From the NCBI GenBank assembly GCA_017509715.1, contig JAFWOU010000014.1:1-64000 (forward strand): 64,000 bases of DNA. The letters are read 5' to 3'. A model generated the notes under the pieces. It saw only the letters and a list, made by a program, of their open reading frames with translations, made no database searches and was not told the DNA's origin. Positions 13,874-64,000 of the stretch are shown one piece after another; the stretch's first letter is position 1; each line of letters opens with the position of its first letter. The position numbers were made by a program, and so were the translations under genes. The DNA comes from Paludibacteraceae bacterium (GTDB lineage Bacteria > Bacteroidota > Bacteroidia > Bacteroidales > Paludibacteraceae).

Positions 13874-16335
13874 TCAATATCATGTACACCATGCTGCTGA
13901 TCAGCAGCATGGTGCTTTATTCATGCTCTACGAAGCAGCCGGTGCGTACAGATACATTGCTGCGTGAATGGCAGTTCACGCAAGACACGACCGACAACCC
14001 GGTTTGGGAAGACGTGACTATTCCGCACGACTGGGCTATCAGCGGACCTTTTGACCGTGCCAATGACCTGCAAGAGGTCATCGTCGTGCAGAACGGCGAG
14101 AGCGAGCCGACCTGGAAGACCGGCCGAAGCGGTGGCCTACCCTGGATGGGCAGGGGGCACTACCACACGCGCGTGGCAGTGAAGAAAGACCGGTTCTACA
14201 CACTGGTATTCGACGGCGCGATGAGTCATGCCGACGTGTATGTGAACGGCGAGGAGATGGTATACTGGCCGTACGGGTATAATACCTTCGACTGCTATAT
14301 CCTGCCGGAACTCATCACGGGCGATAGCGTAGATATCGACGTCTATCTGGAGAACAAACCGCAACAGAGCCGCTGGTATCCGGGAGCAGGTCTGTACAGA
14401 AACGTCCACCTGGTAGAAACCAATCCGATCCACATCCCTACGTTTGGCACGCTCGTTCGCACATCGGAAGTAAGCCGTGAAAAGGCTATTGTAAGCTTTG
14501 CCGCAGAGCTGCAAAATGGTGTAGACTCTACTTCTGCCGAAGCAGAGGGTGTTACCATCGAGACCGACATACTCTATGACGGCAAGGTGGTAGCCACGAT
14601 AGAAGGTCAAGAGGGGCAAACGGAAGTGGCGAAACCGCATCTTTGGAGTCCGGAGACGCCAAATCTATATATCGCCCGTACACGCGTGTATAAGGAGTCG
14701 AAAGTCGAAAGTCAAAAGTCGAAAGAACTGCTTGATGAAGTAGAGACGCGCTTCGGTATTCGGAGTATCTCGTATACACCGGAGCATGGTTTTCAGCTAA
14801 ACGGCGAGACCCGTAAGTTCAAGGGCGTATGCAACCACCACGACTTAGGACCGCTGGGCGCCGCCGTGAATCGTGACGCGCTGAAGCACCAGTTGACCAT
14901 GCTCAAGGAAATGGGATGCGATGCGATTCGTACGAGTCATAACATGCCGGCACCGGAACTGGTAGAGCTATGCGACGAGATGGGTATGATGATGATGATT
15001 GAACCCTTTGACGTATGGAACCACGGTAAGACGGAGAACGACTATAACAAGGAGTTCAACGACTGGTGGCGCCAGGATATCACCAACATGGTGAAGCACT
15101 ACCGCAATAATGCCTGCGTGATGCTCTGGTCAAGCGGCAACGAAGTGTGGAACCAAGTGCTGGAGGACGGTATTGAGATCGTCACAAACCTGCAGGCGCT
15201 CTTCCACGAGCTCGACCCCACCCGCCCCGTAACGAACGGCATGGACCAGGCGATGCACGTGATCCACAACGGATTTGGTGCAGCGGTAGAATTGCCGGGA
15301 CTGAACTACCGTACCGGCCGCTACGAAGAGGCGTTTGAGAACCTGCCGCAGAAAATGGTCTTGGGTAGTGAGACAGCCAGCACCGTTTCCAGCCGAGGCG
15401 TATATAAGACCCCTGCTGTTATTCAGCCGGATGCGCACTATGCCGATAATCAATCTTCCGGTTACGACGTGGAATACTGCGCCTGGTCGGGTCTACCGGA
15501 GCAGGACTTCCAGTTGCAGGACGACTATCCATGGACCTTGGGACAGTTTGTTTGGACCGGTTTTGACTACCTGGGCGAACCCTCGCCGTATGATACCGAC
15601 GCATGGCCGAGCCACAGCAGCTATTTCGGTATTATCGACCTGGCTTCGCTGCCGAAGGACCGCTACTGGCTCTACCGCAGCCAGTGGAACAAGAAATCGC
15701 CTACCCTGCACGTTCTGCCCCACTGGAATTGGCAGAAGGGCGACTCGGTGCCGGTATTCTGCTATACAAGTTATCCCAGTGCAGAGCTGTTCGTAAATGG
15801 TAAGAGCTATGGCAAGTTGCGCTTTGCGACCAAGGAAGAGACCGAGCGTCTGGCGCAGGGCGAAACGATAGAGGGCGTTAGCCGTATGCCCAAGGTAGCC
15901 GAGTTTGAGGTGCCCGAATGGGGCAGCGCGCCGCGTCCGGAACTGCTGCCCAGATACCGACTGATGTGGTTTGACGTACCGTATGAAGCCGGCGAGATGA
16001 CCATTGTAGCTTATGATGCGAATGGCAAAGAAGCTGCACGCGAGACCATCAAGACGGCTGGCGAACCGGATCATTTGGAGGTAGTTTGGGCCAACGAAGA
16101 GGAGAATCCCGAGGAACTGTGCTACTACACAATACGCGTGGTAGATAAAGACGGCAACCTCTGTCCGAACGCCAACAACCTGATTCGCTACGAAGGAGAG
16201 GGCTTTATCGCCACAGCTAATGGCGACGCCGCTTGTCTGGAGAGCTTCGTAAAGCCGCAGATGCATGCCTTTGCCGGACAATGTACGTTCATCATTCGAA
16301 AAGGTGCTAAAGGTTCATTCCTGATGGACCGCTAA
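13861..16335 (+). CDS. GH2 beta-galactosidase lipoprotein
   Basis: An 824-residue glycoside hydrolase family 2 enzyme, predicted to release galactose from galacto-oligosaccharides produced by the GH53 enzyme. The leader ending MVLYSC has a lipobox, so it is probably membrane-anchored in the periplasm or on the surface. Sugar-binding domain (about 30-190, DWAISGPF), immunoglobulin-like domain, then the TIM barrel: RTSHNMPAPE, acid/base Glu in SSGNEVW near residue 427, nucleophile Glu in VLGSETAS near 502, and WTGFDYLGEP. A C-terminal sandwich domain follows. A GTCGAAA array (14697-14724) encodes a loop in the second domain (SKVESQKSK). Last gene of the operon; strong terminator follows. Confidence 0.93.
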   Translation: MKVPFNIMYTMLLISSMVLYSCSTKQPVRTDTLLREWQFTQDTTDNPVWEDVTIPHDWAISGPFDRANDLQEVIVVQNGESEPTWKTGRSGGLPWMGRGHYHTRVAVKKDRFYTLVFDGAMSHADVYVNGEEMVYWPYGYNTFDCYILPELITGDSVDIDVYLENKPQQSRWYPGAGLYRNVHLVETNPIHIPTFGTLVRTSEVSREKAIVSFAAELQNGVDSTSAEAEGVTIETDILYDGKVVATIEGQEGQTEVAKPHLWSPETPNLYIARTRVYKESKVESQKSKELLDEVETRFGIRSISYTPEHGFQLNGETRKFKGVCNHHDLGPLGAAVNRDALKHQLTMLKEMGCDAIRTSHNMPAPELVELCDEMGMMMMIEPFDVWNHGKTENDYNKEFNDWWRQDITNMVKHYRNNACVMLWSSGNEVWNQVLEDGIEIVTNLQALFHELDPTRPVTNGMDQAMHVIHNGFGAAVELPGLNYRTGRYEEAFENLPQKMVLGSETASTVSSRGVYKTPAVIQPDAHYADNQSSGYDVEYCAWSGLPEQDFQLQDDYPWTLGQFVWTGFDYLGEPSPYDTDAWPSHSSYFGIIDLASLPKDRYWLYRSQWNKKSPTLHVLPHWNWQKGDSVPVFCYTSYPSAELFVNGKSYGKLRFATKEETERLAQGETIEGVSRMPKVAEFEVPEWGSAPRPELLPRYRLMWFDVPYEAGEMTIVAYDANGKEAARETIKTAGEPDHLEVVWANEEENPEELCYYTIRVVDKDGNLCPNANNLIRYEGEGFIATANGDAACLESFVKPQMHAFAGQCTFIIRKGAKGSFLMDR
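14697..14724 (+). repeat. GTCGAAA heptamer array (4 units) inside the GH2 gene
   Basis: Units GTCGAAA, GTCGAAA, GTCAAAA, GTCGAAA, read as SKVESQKSK in a loop before the conserved ETRFGIRSI strand. Confidence 0.92.
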
Positions 16336-27867: not shown

Positions 27868-29187
27868 GTGAAAAAAGGTGTCGTTGATTTCATAACCCTT
27901 GGGTGCTCGAAAAATCTGGTGGATACCGAGCGCGTGATGCGACAGTTGGAAGCTGTCGGCTGGTCGTGTGTGCACGACCCCGAAGAGCCCACCGGCGAAA
28001 TAGCCGTCATTAATACTTGCGGCTTCATCGGTGATGCGAAGGAGGAAAGTATCAATACTATACTGCAATTCGCGGAGCGAAAGAAGCAAAAAAAGCTAAA
28101 CCGCCTCTACGTCATGGGTTGCCTGAGCGAACGCTACCGAGCCGAACTGGAAGAAGAATTGCCGGAAGTGGATGCCTACTTCGGAAAGTTTGACTTCCAA
28201 GCCATCATAGAGCAGGTTAAGTCAGATGCAAGTAAGGGTAATCCTAGACCATACCCATGGTTTGAACGTACCCTCACCACTCCCAAACACTATGCATACC
28301 TCAAGATTTCGGAGGGCTGCAACCGCATGTGTTCCTACTGTGCGATACCGCTGATCACAGGACGACATACCAGCCGCCCAAAACAGGAGATCATCCAGGA
28401 AGTGCAGTGGCTGGTATCCCAAGGTGTGAAAGAACTGAACGTCATTGCCCAGGACTTGAGCAGTTACGGCCTGGACTTGGAGCACCGCCATATGTTGCCG
28501 GAACTGGTGGATGAAATCGCCCAAATACCCGGCGTGGAATGGATACGACTACATTATGCCTACCCCACGGATTTTCCGGAGGACTTGCTGGACGTGATGG
28601 CCAAGCACCGGAACGTGTGCAAGTACCTGGATATCGCCCTGCAGCATTGTACAGATCATATGCTGAGCGTGATGCGCAGACATATTACACGCGCTGAGCA
28701 GGATGCCCTGATTCGCAAGATACGTGAACGAGTGCCGGGCATATGTATCCGCACTACCCTATTGGTCGGCCATCCGGGTGAGACAGCAGAGGATTTCGAG
28801 GAACTGAAAGCATGGGTACGGGAGATGCGATTCGACCGCATGGGTGCGTTTGCCTATTCGGATGAAGAGGGCACATATGCCAACAAACACTATAAGGACG
28901 ATATCCCGGATGAAGTCAAGCAGCAACGTCTGGAGGAACTCATGGCTATCCAACAGGAGATATCCGGCGAACTGATGCAACAGAAAGTAGGCCAACGGCT
29001 ACGCGTAGTGATCGACCGCCAAGAAGGCGACTACTATGTGGGACGAACGGAACAAGATAGTCCGGAGGTGGATTGCGAAGTGCTGATACCAGTCGAAAGT
29101 CGAAAGTCGAAAGTCAAAAGCGGAGACTTCGTGGAGGTGGAAATTGTCAGAGCAGAAGAATTTGATTTATACGCAATACTATGTTAA
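27868..29187 (+). CDS. rimO: Ribosomal protein S12 methylthiotransferase
   Basis: A radical SAM enzyme that adds a methylthio group to an aspartate of ribosomal protein S12; 439 residues. The N-terminal MTTase domain has Cys residues in TLGCSKN, NTCGFIGDAKEESI and MGCLSERY; the radical SAM cluster is CNRMCSYC near residue 151; a TRAM domain closes the protein. The start is GTG (27868); no in-frame ATG gives the expected KKGVVDFITLGCSKN. A GTCGAAA array (29092-29119) encodes a TRAM loop (VESRKSKVKS) where other RimO proteins have a short polar turn. Its stop overlaps the start of the HU gene by 7 nt. Confidence 0.95.
   Translation: MKKGVVDFITLGCSKNLVDTERVMRQLEAVGWSCVHDPEEPTGEIAVINTCGFIGDAKEESINTILQFAERKKQKKLNRLYVMGCLSERYRAELEEELPEVDAYFGKFDFQAIIEQVKSDASKGNPRPYPWFERTLTTPKHYAYLKISEGCNRMCSYCAIPLITGRHTSRPKQEIIQEVQWLVSQGVKELNVIAQDLSSYGLDLEHRHMLPELVDEIAQIPGVEWIRLHYAYPTDFPEDLLDVMAKHRNVCKYLDIALQHCTDHMLSVMRRHITRAEQDALIRKIRERVPGICIRTTLLVGHPGETAEDFEELKAWVREMRFDRMGAFAYSDEEGTYANKHYKDDIPDEVKQQRLEELMAIQQEISGELMQQKVGQRLRVVIDRQEGDYYVGRTEQDSPEVDCEVLIPVESRKSKVKSGDFVEVEIVRAEEFDLYAILC
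29092..29119 (+). repeat. GTCGAAA heptamer array (4 units) inside rimO
   Basis: Units GTCGAAA, GTCGAAA, GTCGAAA, GTCAAAA encode VESRKSKVKS in the TRAM domain. Confidence 0.93.
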
Positions 29188-49878: not shown

Positions 49879-49910
49879 TTTGCACACGTCAATTATTTTT
49901 TGTAACTTTG
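49879..49910 (+). promoter_or_regulatory. Promoter of the ADH-ALDH fusion gene
   Basis: TTTG (49879-49882), a 20-nt spacer and TAACTTTG (49903-49910), 20 nt before the ATG. Confidence 0.8.
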
Positions 49911-49930: not shown

Positions 49931-52591
49931 ATGGATACGTATCGATTCAGGAAACAGATTCACCGATTGCCAGGGAAGGTGATACACGCCATCCCACTGC
50001 CGGAACCGGAAGTGACAGCAGGTCAAGGCGCGCGTCGTGAGATCGGCGCAATGTGCAAGAAGGCAGGTTACAAGCAAGTGCTGGTAGTAACCGACGAGAC
50101 CTTGCACCGCCTGGGCTATGACGAGGCCATACTGGCGTCGTTGCAGGAGGCAGGTGTCAGCGCTTCGCTCTTCTGCGACATCCACTCCGAACCGACCATC
50201 GCCATCATTGATGCTGGCCGCAGGCAGGCACTGGAGACGCAGGCCGAAGCTATCATAGCGCTGGGTGGCGGATCCGTCATGGACAGCTGCAAGATGATTG
50301 CAGCGGGTTGCAAGATGCCGCACGTGCCGGTGAAAGCACTGCTGCTCAAGTTCTTGCCTGTTCCCGGAGAGACGCTGCCGCTCATCATGGTACCCTCTAC
50401 CGCCGGAACAGGTGCTGAACTGACGGTAGGAGCTGTGGTAACGAACGACCACGGCGCCAAAGGATCGACCGTCCTGATTGGTCTAAACGTGACGCACGTG
50501 GTGCATGATAGCGAACTCACCATCCACGCACCGAAAGCCGTTACCGCCGCATGCGGTATCGATGCCCTGAGTCATTGTATCGAAGGGGCGGTGAGTGATA
50601 CGGAGGTTGATGAAGAAGATATGCGCATGTCCATGGAAGGCGTGAAGTTGATTCTGGAGAATCTGCCGTTATTAACGAGTGAAGGAGTGAAAGAATTAAC
50701 GAGTGAAGGAGCAGAGCAAGCCCGGTTGAATATGGCGAAGGCAGCGATGTACGGTGGTAACGCCATCAACACGCAGTTGGCGGGATATGTACACGCATTC
50801 GCACACAGTATAGGGGCTATGTACCATCTCTCGCACGGGCAAGCTATCTCGCTGATGCTGTTGCCCGTACTGGAATTCCAAAAAGAAGCCTGCTTGCACC
50901 ACTACGCAGAATTGGCGCGCTATTGTGGACTGGTCGAAAAACCATTGTCGGTGAATGACGTGCAGGCCGCCGAACTCTTTCTGCAAGCGATACGCGACCT
51001 CATCGCCGCATGCGGCATGGACCAAATCGAGTCGCCGGTGCGCGCGTGCGACCACGAGCAACTGATCCCGATGATTGCTGCCGATTCTATCAATTACTCG
51101 GCACCGGTGACACTCAGTAACGCCGATATCAAGGATATCCTGGTAAGGGTTACGGGTTACGGGTTACCGGTTACGGGATATTCAGAAGAATCGATACGCG
51201 AGATCGTGGCTGCACAACGCCGTTTCTTCCGCACAGGCGAGACGCTACCGATCAAATGGCGCATCAAGCAACTCCGACGCCTCAAAGAAGCCGTACTGGC
51301 ACATCAGGACGAACTGATCGGAGCATTGCGCGAGGACTTGGGCAGAAGTGAGATGGAGGCATATCTATGCGATATAGGACCTATCATCACCGAGGTGAAC
51401 GAGATGATAGCGGGCCTGCGTCGATGGAGCCGACCGGAGATTCACTTCAGCGGCCTCATGTGCTGGCCAAGCATCATCACCCGGGTCTATAAGATGCCCT
51501 ACGGCGTGTCGCTCGTCATCAGTCCGTTCAACTTCCCTATCCTGCTGACGATAGGCGTGGTAGCCGCAGCTATGTGCGGCGGTAACACCGTGGTCATCAA
51601 GTCAAGTTCGAAGTCGGCTGCCAGCACAGCGGCATTGAAACGCTTCTTTGCCGAAGTATTCCCGCCGGAGTACATCACGCTCATCGACGGCGGACACGAC
51701 GTGGCCGATATGTGTCTGGCGCAACGCTTCGACAAGATCTTCTATACCGGCAGTCCGTCGGTAGGCAAGCACGTACTGGCCGAAGCGGCCAAAAACCTGA
51801 CGCCGGTAGCCCTTGAACTGGGCGGCGAGACCGGTAACTGGTGCGTCATCCGCAAAGATGCCGACCTCAAGGACGCAGCTCGCAAGATAGCCTTCTTCAA
51901 GTTGCTCAATGCCGGACAGATATGCATCAATATCAATCAGATAGCGGTTGCCGAAGAAGTAGCCGACGAGTTCCTGAAAGAACTGAAAGCAGCCTTCATA
52001 GCCCAGATAGGCGAACATGCGGAACGTAATCCCGAGTACCCGAAACTGATTACAGACACGGCGTACGATAAGTGCGCTAAGTTGGCGGACGAGTACCGCG
52101 AGCGTATTGTGTTCGGCGGAACAGGCGACAAATCCGCACGCAAATACGCCCCGACAATCATCTATCCGGTGGATAGCAACGAACACATCGTGCAACACGA
52201 ACTCTTCTGTCCGCTGTTGCCAATCGTACCCTATAAAGATGCTGAAGTGGATAGCCTCATGGACGTGATAGCCGACCGCGAACATCCCTTAGCGATGTAC
52301 CTCTTCACGCGCGATATGCGCTGGGCGAATCGCGTGATGCAAACCCAGCAGTTTGGCGGCGGTTGCATCAACGAAGTGTGTGTACATATGATGGTGAAGG
52401 GTGTTCCATTCAACGGTACCGGTCATTCGGGCATGGGCGCGTACCACGGCGAATGGGGTTTCCGTGAGTTCACGCACCCGCAGACCGTACTAAAAGGAAG
52501 TTCGCGCTTCAATCTCTCGTTGCGCGAACATCCTTATACCGGTAAAGCCGGTGAAACGAAAATGCGTCTGTTACGTCTGTTTGAACGCTAA
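49931..52591 (+). CDS. Fused iron-type alcohol dehydrogenase - aldehyde dehydrogenase
   Basis: An 886-residue two-enzyme protein. Residues 1-405 are an iron-containing (type III) alcohol dehydrogenase: IIALGGGSVMDSCK for NAD, PSTAGTGAEL, and metal ligands in GIDALSHCIE and HAFAHSIGAMYHLSHG. Residues 416-886 are an aldehyde dehydrogenase of the class 3 type: ISPFNFPILLTIG, ELGGETGN and catalytic Cys (about 665) in NAGQICININ. The order is the reverse of AdhE (ALDH-ADH), so this is a separate fusion. The linker RVTGYGLPVTGY is encoded by a four-unit GGGTTAC array; a second array (50677-50708) encodes LTSEGVKELTSEG. Role: aldehyde/alcohol interconversion, substrates unknown. Confidence 0.9.
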   Translation: MDTYRFRKQIHRLPGKVIHAIPLPEPEVTAGQGARREIGAMCKKAGYKQVLVVTDETLHRLGYDEAILASLQEAGVSASLFCDIHSEPTIAIIDAGRRQALETQAEAIIALGGGSVMDSCKMIAAGCKMPHVPVKALLLKFLPVPGETLPLIMVPSTAGTGAELTVGAVVTNDHGAKGSTVLIGLNVTHVVHDSELTIHAPKAVTAACGIDALSHCIEGAVSDTEVDEEDMRMSMEGVKLILENLPLLTSEGVKELTSEGAEQARLNMAKAAMYGGNAINTQLAGYVHAFAHSIGAMYHLSHGQAISLMLLPVLEFQKEACLHHYAELARYCGLVEKPLSVNDVQAAELFLQAIRDLIAACGMDQIESPVRACDHEQLIPMIAADSINYSAPVTLSNADIKDILVRVTGYGLPVTGYSEESIREIVAAQRRFFRTGETLPIKWRIKQLRRLKEAVLAHQDELIGALREDLGRSEMEAYLCDIGPIITEVNEMIAGLRRWSRPEIHFSGLMCWPSIITRVYKMPYGVSLVISPFNFPILLTIGVVAAAMCGGNTVVIKSSSKSAASTAALKRFFAEVFPPEYITLIDGGHDVADMCLAQRFDKIFYTGSPSVGKHVLAEAAKNLTPVALELGGETGNWCVIRKDADLKDAARKIAFFKLLNAGQICININQIAVAEEVADEFLKELKAAFIAQIGEHAERNPEYPKLITDTAYDKCAKLADEYRERIVFGGTGDKSARKYAPTIIYPVDSNEHIVQHELFCPLLPIVPYKDAEVDSLMDVIADREHPLAMYLFTRDMRWANRVMQTQQFGGGCINEVCVHMMVKGVPFNGTGHSGMGAYHGEWGFREFTHPQTVLKGSSRFNLSLREHPYTGKAGETKMRLLRLFER
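50677..50708 (+). repeat. Octamer array (4 units) inside the ADH domain
   Basis: Units GAGTGAAG, GAGTGAAA, GAATTAAC, GAGTGAAG encode part of LTSEGVKELTSEGAE. The same word occurs at 5300-5318 and 8076-8094. Confidence 0.7.
51147..51174 (+). repeat. GGGTTAC heptamer array (4 units) at the fusion junction
   Basis: Units GGGTTAC, GGGTTAC, GGGTTAC, CGGTTAC encode the linker between ADH and ALDH. The same heptamer, in the other orientation, forms the nine-unit array at 63617-63679. Confidence 0.93.
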
Positions 52592-55260: not shown

Positions 55261-55967
55261 TCAGTATTATTGTTCCCATATACAATGCAGCCGACTATCT
55301 GGAGCAGTGCATCCGGAGTTTGGTACAGCAGACCGAAAGCGATCTGCAGATCATCTTGGTAGATGACGGCAGTACCGACCGCAGCCGGCCTATCTTGGAA
55401 ACGTTTGCCAAGCAGGACGAGCGTATCATCTTGCTACAACAGCCGCATGCCGGTCAATCGGCGGCGCGCAACCGCGGCCTACAGCATGCTACAGGCGAGT
55501 ACATCGCCTTTGTAGATGCCGATGACAGCCTGGAGCCGGACTGGTGCGCCCGGCATCTACAGGCGATAGCTGACGTAGATTATGTGCAAAGCGGCTACCA
55601 GAGAATTCAGAATTCAGAATTCAGCTCTCAGAAAACACCTCTCCATCGTCTCCAGTTCACCTCGCCCTGTATGCGTCTGTATCGGCGCGAAGCCATCGCC
55701 GCCATGCAGTTTACCGAGGGCATGATCTACGAGGATGTGGTATGGTCGGTGGATCTATGGCTGCGCGACCTGCGCTATCGTCGCATCCCCTATGCCGGCT
55801 ACCGCTACACACTCAATCCCCGTAGCACGACCTCCCAGCGTCATCCGGAAGCGGAGCAACGGGTATTTGCGGAACTCAAGAAGCGGATGGCGCAAGCCAA
55901 TCGCAAAGGCAAAATAATATTGATATACACCATTATACGACTAAAACTCCATTTTATAAAACAATGA
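55257..55967 (+). CDS. Glycosyltransferase family 2
   Basis: A 236-residue GT-A glycosyltransferase. MISIIVPIYNAADYLEQCI and LVDDGSTDRS mark the nucleotide-sugar site, AARNRGLQHATGEYIAFVDADD the DXD region (near residue 88; short: FVDADD). A catalytic Glu-Asp pair is visible in MIYEDVVW near 160. A four-unit GAATTCA array (55603-55630) encodes a loop, QNSEFSSQK, near residue 120. It overlaps both neighbours by 4 nt (ATGA), so it is translated with the hemolysin III and pectate lyase genes. Donor and acceptor unknown. Confidence 0.9.
   Translation: MISIIVPIYNAADYLEQCIRSLVQQTESDLQIILVDDGSTDRSRPILETFAKQDERIILLQQPHAGQSAARNRGLQHATGEYIAFVDADDSLEPDWCARHLQAIADVDYVQSGYQRIQNSEFSSQKTPLHRLQFTSPCMRLYRREAIAAMQFTEGMIYEDVVWSVDLWLRDLRYRRIPYAGYRYTLNPRSTTSQRHPEAEQRVFAELKKRMAQANRKGKIILIYTIIRLKLHFIKQ
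55603..55630 (+). repeat. GAATTCA heptamer array (4 units) inside the GT2 gene
   Basis: Units GAATTCA, GAATTCA, GAATTCA, GCTCTCA encode the loop QNSEFSSQ. Confidence 0.9.
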
Positions 55968-58126
55968 AAAAATCGCTTCTCATCCTGGCAGCTACGCTGC
56001 TTCTTTCACCTTTCACCTTTCACCTCTCACCCTTAGGTGCAGCCGTTTATTATGCCTCGCCGAATGGCCTCGGGGACGGCAGTTCCTATTTCTCGCCGAC
56101 CACTTTCGCTACGGGTGTCAGCATGCTTCATAACCCGGGCGATACGTTGTATCTACTGGGCGGAACGTACGAGTTTACGGATAAGTTCAGCATCAACAAA
56201 CAGGGTTCGGCAAAAAAGCGTATCGTCATCGCCGGTGTTCCGGGTGAGACGCCGATACTCGATTTTCATAAAGTGGCCTACGGCACCCGTGGCATCACCA
56301 TCCATGCCGATGCCTTGTACATCCATCTGCGCGACCTCACCATCGCCTGGTCGGGCAAGAATAACCTGTACTGCGAGGGCTCGTACTGCCTCTTCGAGCG
56401 ACTGGACATATACGGCTCGGCCGATACAGGTTGCCAGATGAAAAAAGGCGGCAACAACATCATCCTCAACGTAGACAGCCACGACAATTTCGACTACAAG
56501 ACCATGTCCGGCAATACCGCCAACTTCGGCGGCAATGCCGATGGCTTTGCTGATAAGCAGTTTACCGGTGCAGGCAACCACTATATCGGATGCCGTGCCT
56601 GGAACAACTCCGACGACGGATGGGACTTCTTCCAGCGCGTCAGCACGTCGAAGACCATCATCGAGGATTGTATCTGCTTTATGAACGGTTGCCCGTACTA
56701 CGACATGAGCCATAACCCGCGTGCGCTGGGCGTTGATAAGTCGTGGTTCGACAGCAAGGTGGGCACCCAGATGACCGACCGCTACGGCCAGACCATCACC
56801 ATCTCGCTCAATCGCTATCCCTGCCAGGGCAACGGCAACGGTTTTAAGATGGGCGGTCAATATACGGATCATAAGATCCTCATCCATCACTGCCTGGCAG
56901 TTGGCAATTATGCACGCGGCTTCGACCAGAACAACAACGGTGGCACCATGTGGGTCTATAACTGCTCAGCCTACCAGAACGCGTATAACTACGGCTTTAC
57001 CACCGCCTACGGCACCAATACTATCCAGAACTGCATCAGCCTGGCCGGTCAGAATGCTGATGCCTACAAGTCGCAAAATGTCGTCACGATCGACCATAAC
57101 TCCTGGAACAACGGCTTTAGCGTCTCTTCTAACGACTTCCAGTCGCTCGATACCACGCTCATTCTGGCGCCGCGCCAGGAGAACGGCGACCTGCCGGACG
57201 TTAGTTTTATGCGCCTCAAGGCAAATTCCGCACTGATTGATGCCGGCATCGATGTCGATCTGTGGTACAACGGCTCAGCACCCGATCTGGGTTGCTACGA
57301 AGCGCCCGGCGAAGAACATCGTCCGGATACCGTGCCGGAAGATACCGTTCCCAGCGTACAACCTGAAGGCACACATGCCGTAGCCTTTGTTACTATTCCC
57401 GGCTGCGCGGAAGATAAGCCGCTGCTGAAATACCTGCGTCAGAACGACTCGCTCTGGATTGTAGAGACCGAGGCCATGGACCAGACGGTGGATTATAGTC
57501 CGTACGAGGTCATCGTGCTGGGTATGAAGCCGGCTTCGTCGGCCGCAGGATTCGGTCCGCTGAAGGGCTACGACAAACCCATGGTGCTGCTCAAGCCCTG
57601 GCTGCTCAAGCAGGGCATATGGTCGTGGGGCACGGCTATTAATACCCAGGACCTAAGTATCGCCGTGAGCGATCCAACCCACCCGCTCTTTGAAGGACTG
57701 GAGATCACCGACGGTCAGTTACCCCTCTTCTCGCAATGCAACACCAATGCCGTCACAGCCATCTCGGAATGGACGAATACCGCGGGTGTAGAGACCTTAG
57801 CAACGCCCGTAAGCAACACTGCGGCCAACTCGGTCGCTATCCTGCCGGCCGGAACGGACTGCAACGGTACCGTACTGCCCCAACGCATGATCATGATCGG
57901 CGTGTCGGAGTACTCCACGGCATATCTCACCGAGCAGGGCAAGCAGTTGATAGAGAATGCTATCCTGCTGCAACTGGGCGTTCAGATGCCTACCGAGGCT
58001 ATCAGCCAACAGGCAGAAGAAACAACCGCTCCACAGAAAATACTGCAGAACGGTCGGATCATGATCCTGCGCAACGGCAAGATATACAGCATCAGCGGAC
58101 AGACCACATCAGGCGTAGGAATGTAA
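55964..58126 (+). CDS. Secreted PL9 pectate lyase with extra C-terminal domain and T9SS-type tail
   Basis: A 720-residue polygalacturonate-cleaving lyase. Signal peptide to about residue 27, then a right-handed beta-helix. The PL9 hallmark is present: NADGFADK, then CRAWNNSDDGWDFFQ, with the Asp residues that bind Ca2+. After the helix ends (DLGCYEAP, about 445) comes a domain of about 210 residues (VAFVTIPGCAEDKPLLKYL, VIVLGMKP, HPLFEGLEI) that resembles ThuA/GATase-like folds. The end KILQNGRIMILRNGKIYSIS resembles a T9SS sorting domain. A TTTCACC array encodes part of the signal peptide. It converges on ccsA with an 18-bp overlap. Confidence 0.9.
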   Translation: MKKSLLILAATLLLSPFTFHLSPLGAAVYYASPNGLGDGSSYFSPTTFATGVSMLHNPGDTLYLLGGTYEFTDKFSINKQGSAKKRIVIAGVPGETPILDFHKVAYGTRGITIHADALYIHLRDLTIAWSGKNNLYCEGSYCLFERLDIYGSADTGCQMKKGGNNIILNVDSHDNFDYKTMSGNTANFGGNADGFADKQFTGAGNHYIGCRAWNNSDDGWDFFQRVSTSKTIIEDCICFMNGCPYYDMSHNPRALGVDKSWFDSKVGTQMTDRYGQTITISLNRYPCQGNGNGFKMGGQYTDHKILIHHCLAVGNYARGFDQNNNGGTMWVYNCSAYQNAYNYGFTTAYGTNTIQNCISLAGQNADAYKSQNVVTIDHNSWNNGFSVSSNDFQSLDTTLILAPRQENGDLPDVSFMRLKANSALIDAGIDVDLWYNGSAPDLGCYEAPGEEHRPDTVPEDTVPSVQPEGTHAVAFVTIPGCAEDKPLLKYLRQNDSLWIVETEAMDQTVDYSPYEVIVLGMKPASSAAGFGPLKGYDKPMVLLKPWLLKQGIWSWGTAINTQDLSIAVSDPTHPLFEGLEITDGQLPLFSQCNTNAVTAISEWTNTAGVETLATPVSNTAANSVAILPAGTDCNGTVLPQRMIMIGVSEYSTAYLTEQGKQLIENAILLQLGVQMPTEAISQQAEETTAPQKILQNGRIMILRNGKIYSISGQTTSGVGM
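56004..56031 (+). repeat. TTTCACC heptamer array (4 units) in a signal peptide
   Basis: Units TTTCACC, TTTCACC, TTTCACC, TCTCACC encode SPFTFHLSP near the cleavage site of the pectate lyase leader. Confidence 0.92.
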
Positions 58127-61935: not shown

Positions 61936-63462
61936 TTAGAAATCATAGAATCCTGCATAAACGATGCCTACGGCTATCTGAGGTTCGTCGTTATAGAGTT
62001 TGCCCTTGGTGCCATCGGCCAGTGTGCCGGGCTTGAGGATGCCGTACGAGAACTCGGCCTTGACACCTATCTGCGGAATGGGGAAATAGTTGATACCCAC
62101 CGCCGCACGGTGACGTCCGCACCAGGCGTACATGTCGGTCGGCTTGTTGTCGTAGCGGAACATGGAGTCGTAGTAGTCGTAGCGGCCGAATAAATAAAGC
62201 TTTTGACTTTGGACTTTCGACTTTCGACTAAGGCTAAAGAAATCATAACCTGCCTCGATTCCTGCTGCCAACGCATCCGATGCCACCCACTGCTTGCTGC
62301 TCACCGAACCCTTGCGCATCGCGATATTATATTGAGTAATAGCCGCTGCATCGCTCAGGTGGCCGTAGGTGATACCACCGCGGAGCACCAGGCCATAATC
62401 CTTATACGCAAAGTCGAACGAACCGATCGAGACGGTACCTTTCACGTCCTTGTAGGCGCTGGCATCCAGTTCGCTGTTGCTCTTGCTCAGCGTGTTGCGG
62501 AACGAATTGCCGCAATAGCCTGAGAGCGACAACCGCAGGCCCTTGACGCCCGTATAATCCACGCGGGCAGCACCGGCAAAGACGTTGGCGAGTTTGAACT
62601 CGTAGGGGCTACCGGCACCCGGTTTGATCCAGTTCTTGCGGTTGAAGCGGTCGCTATCCAGTCCGGGCAGAAACATGGCCTGGTAGTGCCAGCCGTTGGG
62701 CGTCGAGCCCATGAAGGTGAGGGCCACTTCGTGCCAGGTGCTGGGGATGATGGTGAACTCACCCTCGTTGCGATAGACGCTAAAGTACTCTGTCGGTTCG
62801 TGGTGGGCGTTCAGTCCTCCTACGGGGATGACCTGCATACCGGCACGTAGGATGGCGTAGCGGTTGAACTCCTTCTGCAACCAGAACTGCTCCAGCGCTA
62901 CTTCACCGCCGCGTTCTATCTCGCCTTCGTACTCACCACCCTCTTCTTCCTCAATCTCGATGGCCGATTCCGTGCCGCCATGCTCGAACTCAATCTCGGT
63001 ACCTACACTCCAGCCCTTGCCGAAGTCGTAACCCATATACACAACCACGTGCGGCAGGTCGAACTCGCCATAGTGGTCGTTGGCATATTTCTCGGGGTTC
63101 TTTCCGTAACGCAGATAGTTGTTGGAGTAGAAGCAGTGCTTGGCCGTCACCTCGCCGTAACCGCCGATGGTGAAGCGTCCTTTCCGGTCATTCGATGCTT
63201 TCTCGGCTCCGGAGCCACTCCGGTTTTGGCTTTCGACTTTATGGGCGGTATCGGTAGCGGTGGTATCTTTCGGTACTTGCCTCGTGGCGCCCGACACGGC
63301 ATCCACTCCCAATTTATTGGGATGGTCCGTTTTTTGCTCCAGACGCTCGATGCGCTGGATGAGCTGCTGCAGTTCGGCAGCACTCACCTTGATACTATCG
63401 TCGGCATACACACTTAACGTGCAAAAAATCAATGAAATAACTACAATCAGTTGTTTTCTCAT
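61936..63462 (-). CDS. OprO/OprP-like outer membrane porin
   Basis: A 508-residue porin: signal peptide MRKQLIVVISLIFCTLSVYA, a short coiled coil (SAAELQQLIQRIERLEQK) as in phosphate-type porins, a charged Ser/Thr linker, and a beta-barrel from about residue 95 (GRFTIGGYGEVTAKH) to the terminal aromatic strand VGIVYAGFYDF. An acidic external loop (IEIEEEEGGEYEGEIERGGE, about 170-190) may bind cations. A GTCGAAA array (62201-62228) encodes SRKSKVQSQK between two strands. As the first gene of the operon with imelysin and a di-haem protein, transport of an iron-related solute is inferred, not shown. Confidence 0.85.
   Translation of the reverse strand: MRKQLIVVISLIFCTLSVYADDSIKVSAAELQQLIQRIERLEQKTDHPNKLGVDAVSGATRQVPKDTTATDTAHKVESQNRSGSGAEKASNDRKGRFTIGGYGEVTAKHCFYSNNYLRYGKNPEKYANDHYGEFDLPHVVVYMGYDFGKGWSVGTEIEFEHGGTESAIEIEEEEGGEYEGEIERGGEVALEQFWLQKEFNRYAILRAGMQVIPVGGLNAHHEPTEYFSVYRNEGEFTIIPSTWHEVALTFMGSTPNGWHYQAMFLPGLDSDRFNRKNWIKPGAGSPYEFKLANVFAGAARVDYTGVKGLRLSLSGYCGNSFRNTLSKSNSELDASAYKDVKGTVSIGSFDFAYKDYGLVLRGGITYGHLSDAAAITQYNIAMRKGSVSSKQWVASDALAAGIEAGYDFFSLSRKSKVQSQKLYLFGRYDYYDSMFRYDNKPTDMYAWCGRHRAAVGINYFPIPQIGVKAEFSYGILKPGTLADGTKGKLYNDEPQIAVGIVYAGFYDF
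62201..62228 (-). repeat. GTCGAAA heptamer array (4 units) inside the porin gene
   Basis: On the minus strand GTCGAAA, GTCGAAA, GTCCAAA, GTCAAAA, read as SRKSKVQSQK between two barrel strands. Confidence 0.92.
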
Positions 63463-63598: not shown

Positions 63599-63616
63599 CA
63601 GCAAATTTTGAAACCG

Positions 63617-63683
63617 GTAACCCGTAACCCGTAACCCGTAACCCGTAACCCGTAACCCGTAACCCGTAACCCGTAACCCGTAA
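63617..63683 (+). repeat. Nine-unit perfect GTAACCC array in a 5' leader
   Basis: Nine identical GTAACCC heptamers (63617-63679) followed by GTAA, ending 4 nt before the ATG at 63688. Longest and most uniform array in the window. Confidence 0.96.
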
Positions 63684-63687
63684 ATAT

Positions 63688-64000
63688 ATGTACAAGTCAA
63701 CGGATAAGATATGCGACCTCATGTCGCACGAGGAGGATGCCATCCAGATCATCAGCCGCTTCGGGCTGGAGATGGGTGTTGGAGAGCAGACCATCGAGCA
63801 GGTCTGCGAGGCGCATGGCGTACATACGCCTACGTTCCTGGCCGTGGTGAACTACAAGGTGTTTCATCAGCGGGCCATCCCAAAAGATATTGATGTCCCT
63901 ACCCTGCAGCAGTACCTGCAGAATGCGCATACCTACTTCCTCGATTTCCGCTTGCCGCGTCTGCGCCGGGCACTCATCGAGGCCATCATCCCGGCCGATC
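63688..64000 (+). CDS. RIC/ScdA-type DUF542-hemerythrin protein, partial at the window end
   Basis: The ORF is open to the last base, so only about 104 residues are seen. MYKSTDKICDLMSHEEDAIQ and ISRFGLEMGVGEQTIEQVCEAHGV resemble the N-terminal DUF542 of RIC/ScdA/YtfE iron-sulfur repair proteins; here MGVGEQ replaces the usual Cys pair of that domain. DVPTLQQYLQNAHTYFLDFRLPRLRRAL begins a hemerythrin-like helix with a His suited to the di-iron site (short: NAHTYFLDF). Members protect or repair Fe centres under NO or oxidative stress. It is divergent from the iron/haem-type operon. Confidence 0.78.
   Translation, partial: MYKSTDKICDLMSHEEDAIQIISRFGLEMGVGEQTIEQVCEAHGVHTPTFLAVVNYKVFHQRAIPKDIDVPTLQQYLQNAHTYFLDFRLPRLRRALIEAIIPAD

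Follow-up and report, generated by a model that had tools for sequence, protein, structure and literature searches.

A reverse-order ADH–ALDH fusion with a heptamer array in its inter-domain linker in rumen Bacteroidales

Results

Fused gene and its two domains

The 64,000-nucleotide stretch of Paludibacteraceae DNA that was analyzed (hereafter, the window) contains a gene in which an iron-containing ADH (Fe-ADH) is followed in the same reading frame by a class-3-like ALDH, with a GGGTTAC heptamer array lying between the two (Table 1). The best reading is that this gene belongs to a third ADH/ALDH fusion family, which has the reverse domain order and a different ALDH class and is widespread in rumen Bacteroidales. 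The reading as a whole, namely, a bifunctional enzyme formed from fused neighboring genes, acting in aldehyde clearance and carrying a neutral array in its linker, is given a probability of about 0.8.

The ORF was uninterrupted over 886 aa (ORF calling), and its product showed Pfam matches in the order Fe-ADH (residues 27–178), ADH_Fe_C (205–405) and Aldedh (417–853), which bears out the ADH-then-ALDH order proposed in the first-pass annotation. The metal ligands of the ADH half (D211, H215, H288/H292 and H302) were invariant in all 45 aligned domains, and the GGGS motif was conserved; the Pfam match and the Asp/His ligands place this half among the iron-containing ADHs (PF00465), and its matches included the ADH domains of AdhE, methanol dehydrogenase and lactaldehyde reductase. 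In the ALDH half, C665, E629 and N534 were invariant in 44 of the 44 aligned domains, and Glu757 was conserved as well. The best sequence matches of this half were class 3 enzymes (S. aureus AldH, ALDH3A1, and benzaldehyde and fatty aldehyde dehydrogenases), which, together with the catalytic Cys, Glu and Asn, assigns it by sequence to the class 3-type ALDHs. A search of the genome with PF00171 found no protein other than the product of this ORF. The sequence pair noted upstream of the ATG is putatively promoter-like, judging by eye against the general Bacteroidales consensus.

Table 1. Features of the fused locus and of a related array in the window.
Feature	Coordinates	Strand	Basis
TTTG...TAACTTTG pair, ~20 nt 5' of the ATG	49879..49910	+	by eye
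Fused gene, Fe-ADH then class-3-like ALDH, 886 aa	49931..52591	+	ORF list, Pfam, fused homologues
Iron-containing ADH domain (Pfam 27–405)	49931..51145	+	Pfam, alignment, AlphaFold2
24-nt in-frame near-duplication in a variable ADH loop	50672..50719	+	TRF (period 8, score 42)
Inter-domain linker, residues 406–416	51146..51178	+	Pfam gap, linker dN, low pLDDT
GGGTTAC heptamer array, three perfect units + CGGTTAC + GGG, read as RVTGYGLPVTGY	51147..51177	+	TRF, lag-7 match
Class-3-like ALDH domain	51179..52588	+	Pfam, sequence matches, alignment
Further GGGTTAC array of ~10 units, 5' of an ORF with ATG at 63688	63612..63683	-	TRF

Comparison with five relatives gave dN/dS values of about 0.03–0.08 in the ADH and ALDH domains alike (dN 0.04–0.10 and dS 0.55–1.9 in both), whereas dN in the linker reached 0.6–1.0. 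Thus, at the level of sequence, both halves are held by purifying selection and the linker is unconstrained. In the AlphaFold2 model, the ADH part had pLDDT values mostly above 85 and the linker was a coil with low pLDDT; the arrangement of the domains relative to each other is unreliable (pTM 0.65), and a fold search matched single domains only.

Heptamer array of the linker and heptamers in the genome

The array at the junction covered approximately residues 406–416, that is, precisely the gap separating the two Pfam domains, and the peptide spanning the linker was VTGYGLPVTGYSEESIR. Its perfect GGGTTAC units started at 51147, 51154 and 51161; TRF reported 4.4 copies, the lag-7 match was 20/21 (p < 0.001), no such array appeared in 100 shuffles, so that the chance expectation is nil, and G-runs were visible by eye. 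The four-unit array described at 51147–51174 in the first-pass annotation is thus real and fills the domain gap, although its fourth unit (51168–51174) is mismatched, being CGGTTAC. An array of nine units reported there at 63617 was recovered as well, with a somewhat greater extent (10.3 copies in TRF); here the minus strand is the G-rich one. The supposed second array within the ADH part, in turn, proved to be not a heptamer repeat but a 24-nt near-duplication, in which TTAACGAGTGAAGGAG at 50672 recurs at 50696; it is common to the window gene and its relative L066, and the loop is shorter in most relatives.

Period 7 was the commonest class of short tandem repeat, with 9 arrays in the 64-kb window, an unbiased count, and 46 in 200 kb of sampled stretches, a count biased upward, since some of these stretches were picked around GGGTTAC matches; 200 kb from other families contained 0 heptamer arrays. 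Three consecutive GGGTTAC units gave 54 overlapping matches in the whole genome, on several contigs. Heptamer arrays of all units were not wholly within ORFs in 36 of 55 cases at an ORF coverage of about 85%. Together with the GGGTTAC matches, this gives the G-rich repeats the character of dispersed G3N4 tandem repeats enriched outside genes. In the sampled stretches of the window genome (L172–L181, G000), blocks of GGGTTAC alternated with blocks of GGGTTAT, mostly between co-oriented genes (for example, L180, 17864–18029). In-frame heptamers were also observed in other ORFs of the window (14696–14713, 29091–29115, 55602–55624, 56003–56025 and 62212–62229), and in three of these ORFs units of the AGTCGAA type were translated as SKVESQK-like peptides.

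Among long simple repeats, heptamers are reported to be the most abundant class in many bacteria, and G3N4 heptamers are known in Xanthomonas and Nostoc (PMC4679880, PMC4692102). The repeats described here resemble the dispersed heptanucleotide repeats GGGAATC of Xanthomonas (PMC4692102) and TAACTGA (PMC4679880) in the 7-nt length, the G3N4 type, the dispersed and mostly intergenic position and the small number of units, but they differ in the units GGGTTAC/GGGTTAT, in the many further heptamer units of the same genome and in the occurrence of some arrays in coding linkers and loops.

Distribution of fused, separate and ADH-less forms

A total of 54 distinct fused ORFs were collected, every one of them stop-free and in frame. 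Within the genus, the fusion was present in 39 of 178 genomes (that of the window and 38 further ones, one copy being cut by a contig end), separate adjacent ADH and ALDH genes were present in 9, and others had the ALDH alone, without the ADH. Named matches came from rumen Paludibacteraceae and other Bacteroidales MAGs, and fused-to-split ratios among them are biased by a retrieval that favored full-length homologues. Separate pairs in the same ADH-then-ALDH order, with short gaps or an overlap, were found in another Bacteroidales family, Oscillospiraceae, Lachnospiraceae and Syntrophobacterales, and distant pairs in this order occurred in further families at 30–32% identity. In L022 (G024:C117), an intact ALDH was preceded by the linker and by no more of the ADH than its 29 N-terminal residues. 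Frequent retention of the ALDH in the absence of the ADH suggests that the ALDH is the core half. Flanking genes across 80 loci showed no conservation that would indicate a substrate. The pair occurred three times in one MAG (G098), once fused and twice separate, which may reflect contamination or transfer.

Most of the genomes compared are MAG consensus sequences, and arrays of 7-nt units may be mis-assembled; hence an assembly or consensus error, in which a stop codon or frameshift between two genes was missed, was also considered. The loss of a stop codon by assembly error, named in the first-pass annotation as a possible objection, is ruled out by the 54 distinct fused genes. These in-frame ORFs come from many independent assemblies, and linkers free of repeats are fused too, which makes any explanation by error scarcely credible.

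Phylogeny of the fused and separate states

On the concatenated tree of 87 rows, rooted with distant paralogous pairs, the fused/separate state required 7 changes. The outgroup branch (2.88) is very long and saturated and thus gives these changes no firm direction; separate genes are favored as the older state because the clade with other phyla consists almost wholly of separate genes. According to the opposite view, the fused form is ancestral here, and fission at the free linker gave rise to separate genes on several occasions. Groups of separate genes are indeed nested among fused ones (L139/L142/L146, L144/L150/L152/L154, L149 and L134), L139 has the downstream kinase neighbor of the window locus, which points to one site that is either fused or split, and the fused rows lie closest to the root with the outgroup used. 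That outgroup is, however, the saturated one, and, besides the clade with other phyla, the distant paralogous pairs of the genus are separate too; an ancestral fusion is thus a serious candidate that we nevertheless hold to be less probable than not. With separate genes taken as the older state, the nested separate forms suggest that fission also occurs, although they may instead be survivors that never fused. The fusion is labile, since separate and ADH-less forms recur in one genus.

Heptamers across the fused linkers and the origin of the fusion

Significant period 7 (p < 0.01 at lag 7) was detected in 19 of the 54 distinct fused linkers, whereas at lags 5, 6 and 8–11 the same linkers gave 0–2 significant cases. 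A scan of the 54 whole fused ORFs located all 16 strong lag-7 arrays in the linker and none elsewhere; since the species are related, these 16 should not be counted as independent events. The units varied by species, being of the ATCACCA/ATTACGA/GTTACGG type, AACGGAA or AAAGTCG. L011 and its closest relatives L066–L068 had linkers of similar length with different units (GTTACGG and ATCACCA, respectively), as if the unit had been swapped while the period and the reading frame were kept. L081 and L085, fused species of different clades, had the same non-repeat linker PAFGxExSDE, perhaps owing to recombination.

The first-pass annotation had proposed that an array in an intergenic gap became the linker or that arrays promote fusion, and it looked to relatives for separate adjacent genes with an array in the gap. 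Separate adjacent genes exist (see above), and in a few of these pairs period 7 is present in the gap or at the 3' end of the ADH gene (AATTATG in L120, AGGTTAC-like units in L117, L119 and L138), with marginal period 7 in L107 and L116. The first part of the proposal stands insofar as a former gap is the simplest reading of the linker, because relatives carry the same genes separately in the same order. The second part would mean that a change in the length of a gap array abolished the stop codon and thereby produced the fusion, present linkers being descendants of that array. Beyond the split relatives just named, this account is favored by the linker peptide [IV]T[NG]xxLP[IV]T[NG], common to several scattered fused species with heptamer units a few bases apart, and by the frequency of arrays in fused and split rows (19/54 vs. 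4/33, Fisher p = 0.02 before correction for kinship). In a comparison of independent pairs, few in number and of low power, arrays and fusion were not significantly associated, and the tree required at least 12 changes in array state vs. 7 in the fused/split state. Moreover, 35 of the 54 fused linkers had no significant period 7, the units AACGGAA and AAAGTCG bear no relation to the ATCACCA/GTTACGG type, and the fused gene of L129 (DTU079, named Clostridiaceae) retains the old ATG of the ALDH and lacks a significant array. The same fusion with a non-repeat linker elsewhere, which the annotation regarded as evidence against its proposal if the linker was conserved, was likewise found, although these linkers are variable. 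An array as the cause of the fusion is therefore unlikely, and the best reading of the heptamer array is that of a neutral occupant, or passenger, of the linker.

Gain or loss of one unit in silico truncated the product to 459 or 475 aa, shortly beyond the ADH, with loss of the tethered ALDH; three units would restore the frame. This behavior would be expected of a fusion/fission switch, with populations mixing fused and ADH-only cells. The frame is kept in all 54 fused genes, however, and such a switch is regarded as very improbable.

Discussion

AdhE and BdhE both originated by fusion of neighboring genes and have the ALDH-ADH order (PMC12454647), and InterPro listed 8467 ALDH-ADH proteins vs. 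5 ADH-ALDH proteins in November 2022, the latter having been counted and not studied (PMC12454647). These five have the domain order of the gene described here and are known by count alone. Searching the literature for an enzyme of the ADH-ALDH type in rumen Paludibacteraceae yielded nothing specific. AdhE, too, is a single polypeptide of about 890 aa that combines an Fe-ADH with an ALDH, and among solved structures its ADH domains are the closest by sequence to the ADH half. The order in AdhE is nevertheless the opposite, with ALDH first and Fe-ADH second, its ALDH is CoA-acylating whereas the one described here is predicted to be class-3-like, and the score against the AdhE equivalog NF010378 was 181 bits, below the cut-off of 951. 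BdhE is also a convergent fusion of neighboring ALDH and ADH genes outside AdhE (PMC12454647), but it has the ALDH-ADH order and an ALDH from a different sister group, and the ADH half matched it more weakly (104 bits to 9ldl). The class 3 ALDHs (ALDH3A1, FALDH, benzaldehyde dehydrogenase and S. aureus AldH, 6k0z) share the conserved Cys/Glu/Asn with the ALDH half, which differs from them in being fused behind an ADH, in its identity of about 30% and in two extra residues after ELGG.

The fusion probably arose by the loss of a stop codon between adjacent co-oriented genes, ADH and then ALDH, and a short intergenic gap would thereby have become a linker of 11–15 residues. We infer the chemistry, the direction of evolution and the benefit, the activities being predicted from those of the respective families. 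The Fe-ADH would interconvert alcohol and aldehyde with NAD(P)H, and the tethered class-3-like ALDH would oxidize the aldehyde to the acid. Such an enzyme most likely serves to clear aldehydes, and the tethered ADH may supply the aldehyde or reduce a second molecule; paired reduction and oxidation would balance NAD(H) within one protein. Units of 7 nt presumably expand readily in this lineage, mostly between genes, and within the gene a strong array would be tolerated only in the linker.

AdhE and BdhE show that ALDH-ADH fusion took place at least twice in one order, and the present family, on the reading preferred here, represents the rarer order. The presence of fused, separate and ADH-less states in one genus offers a natural test of channelling and of the reversibility of fusion. 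The location of the strong arrays indicates, in addition, that short tandem repeats in a conserved gene settle only in a free linker.
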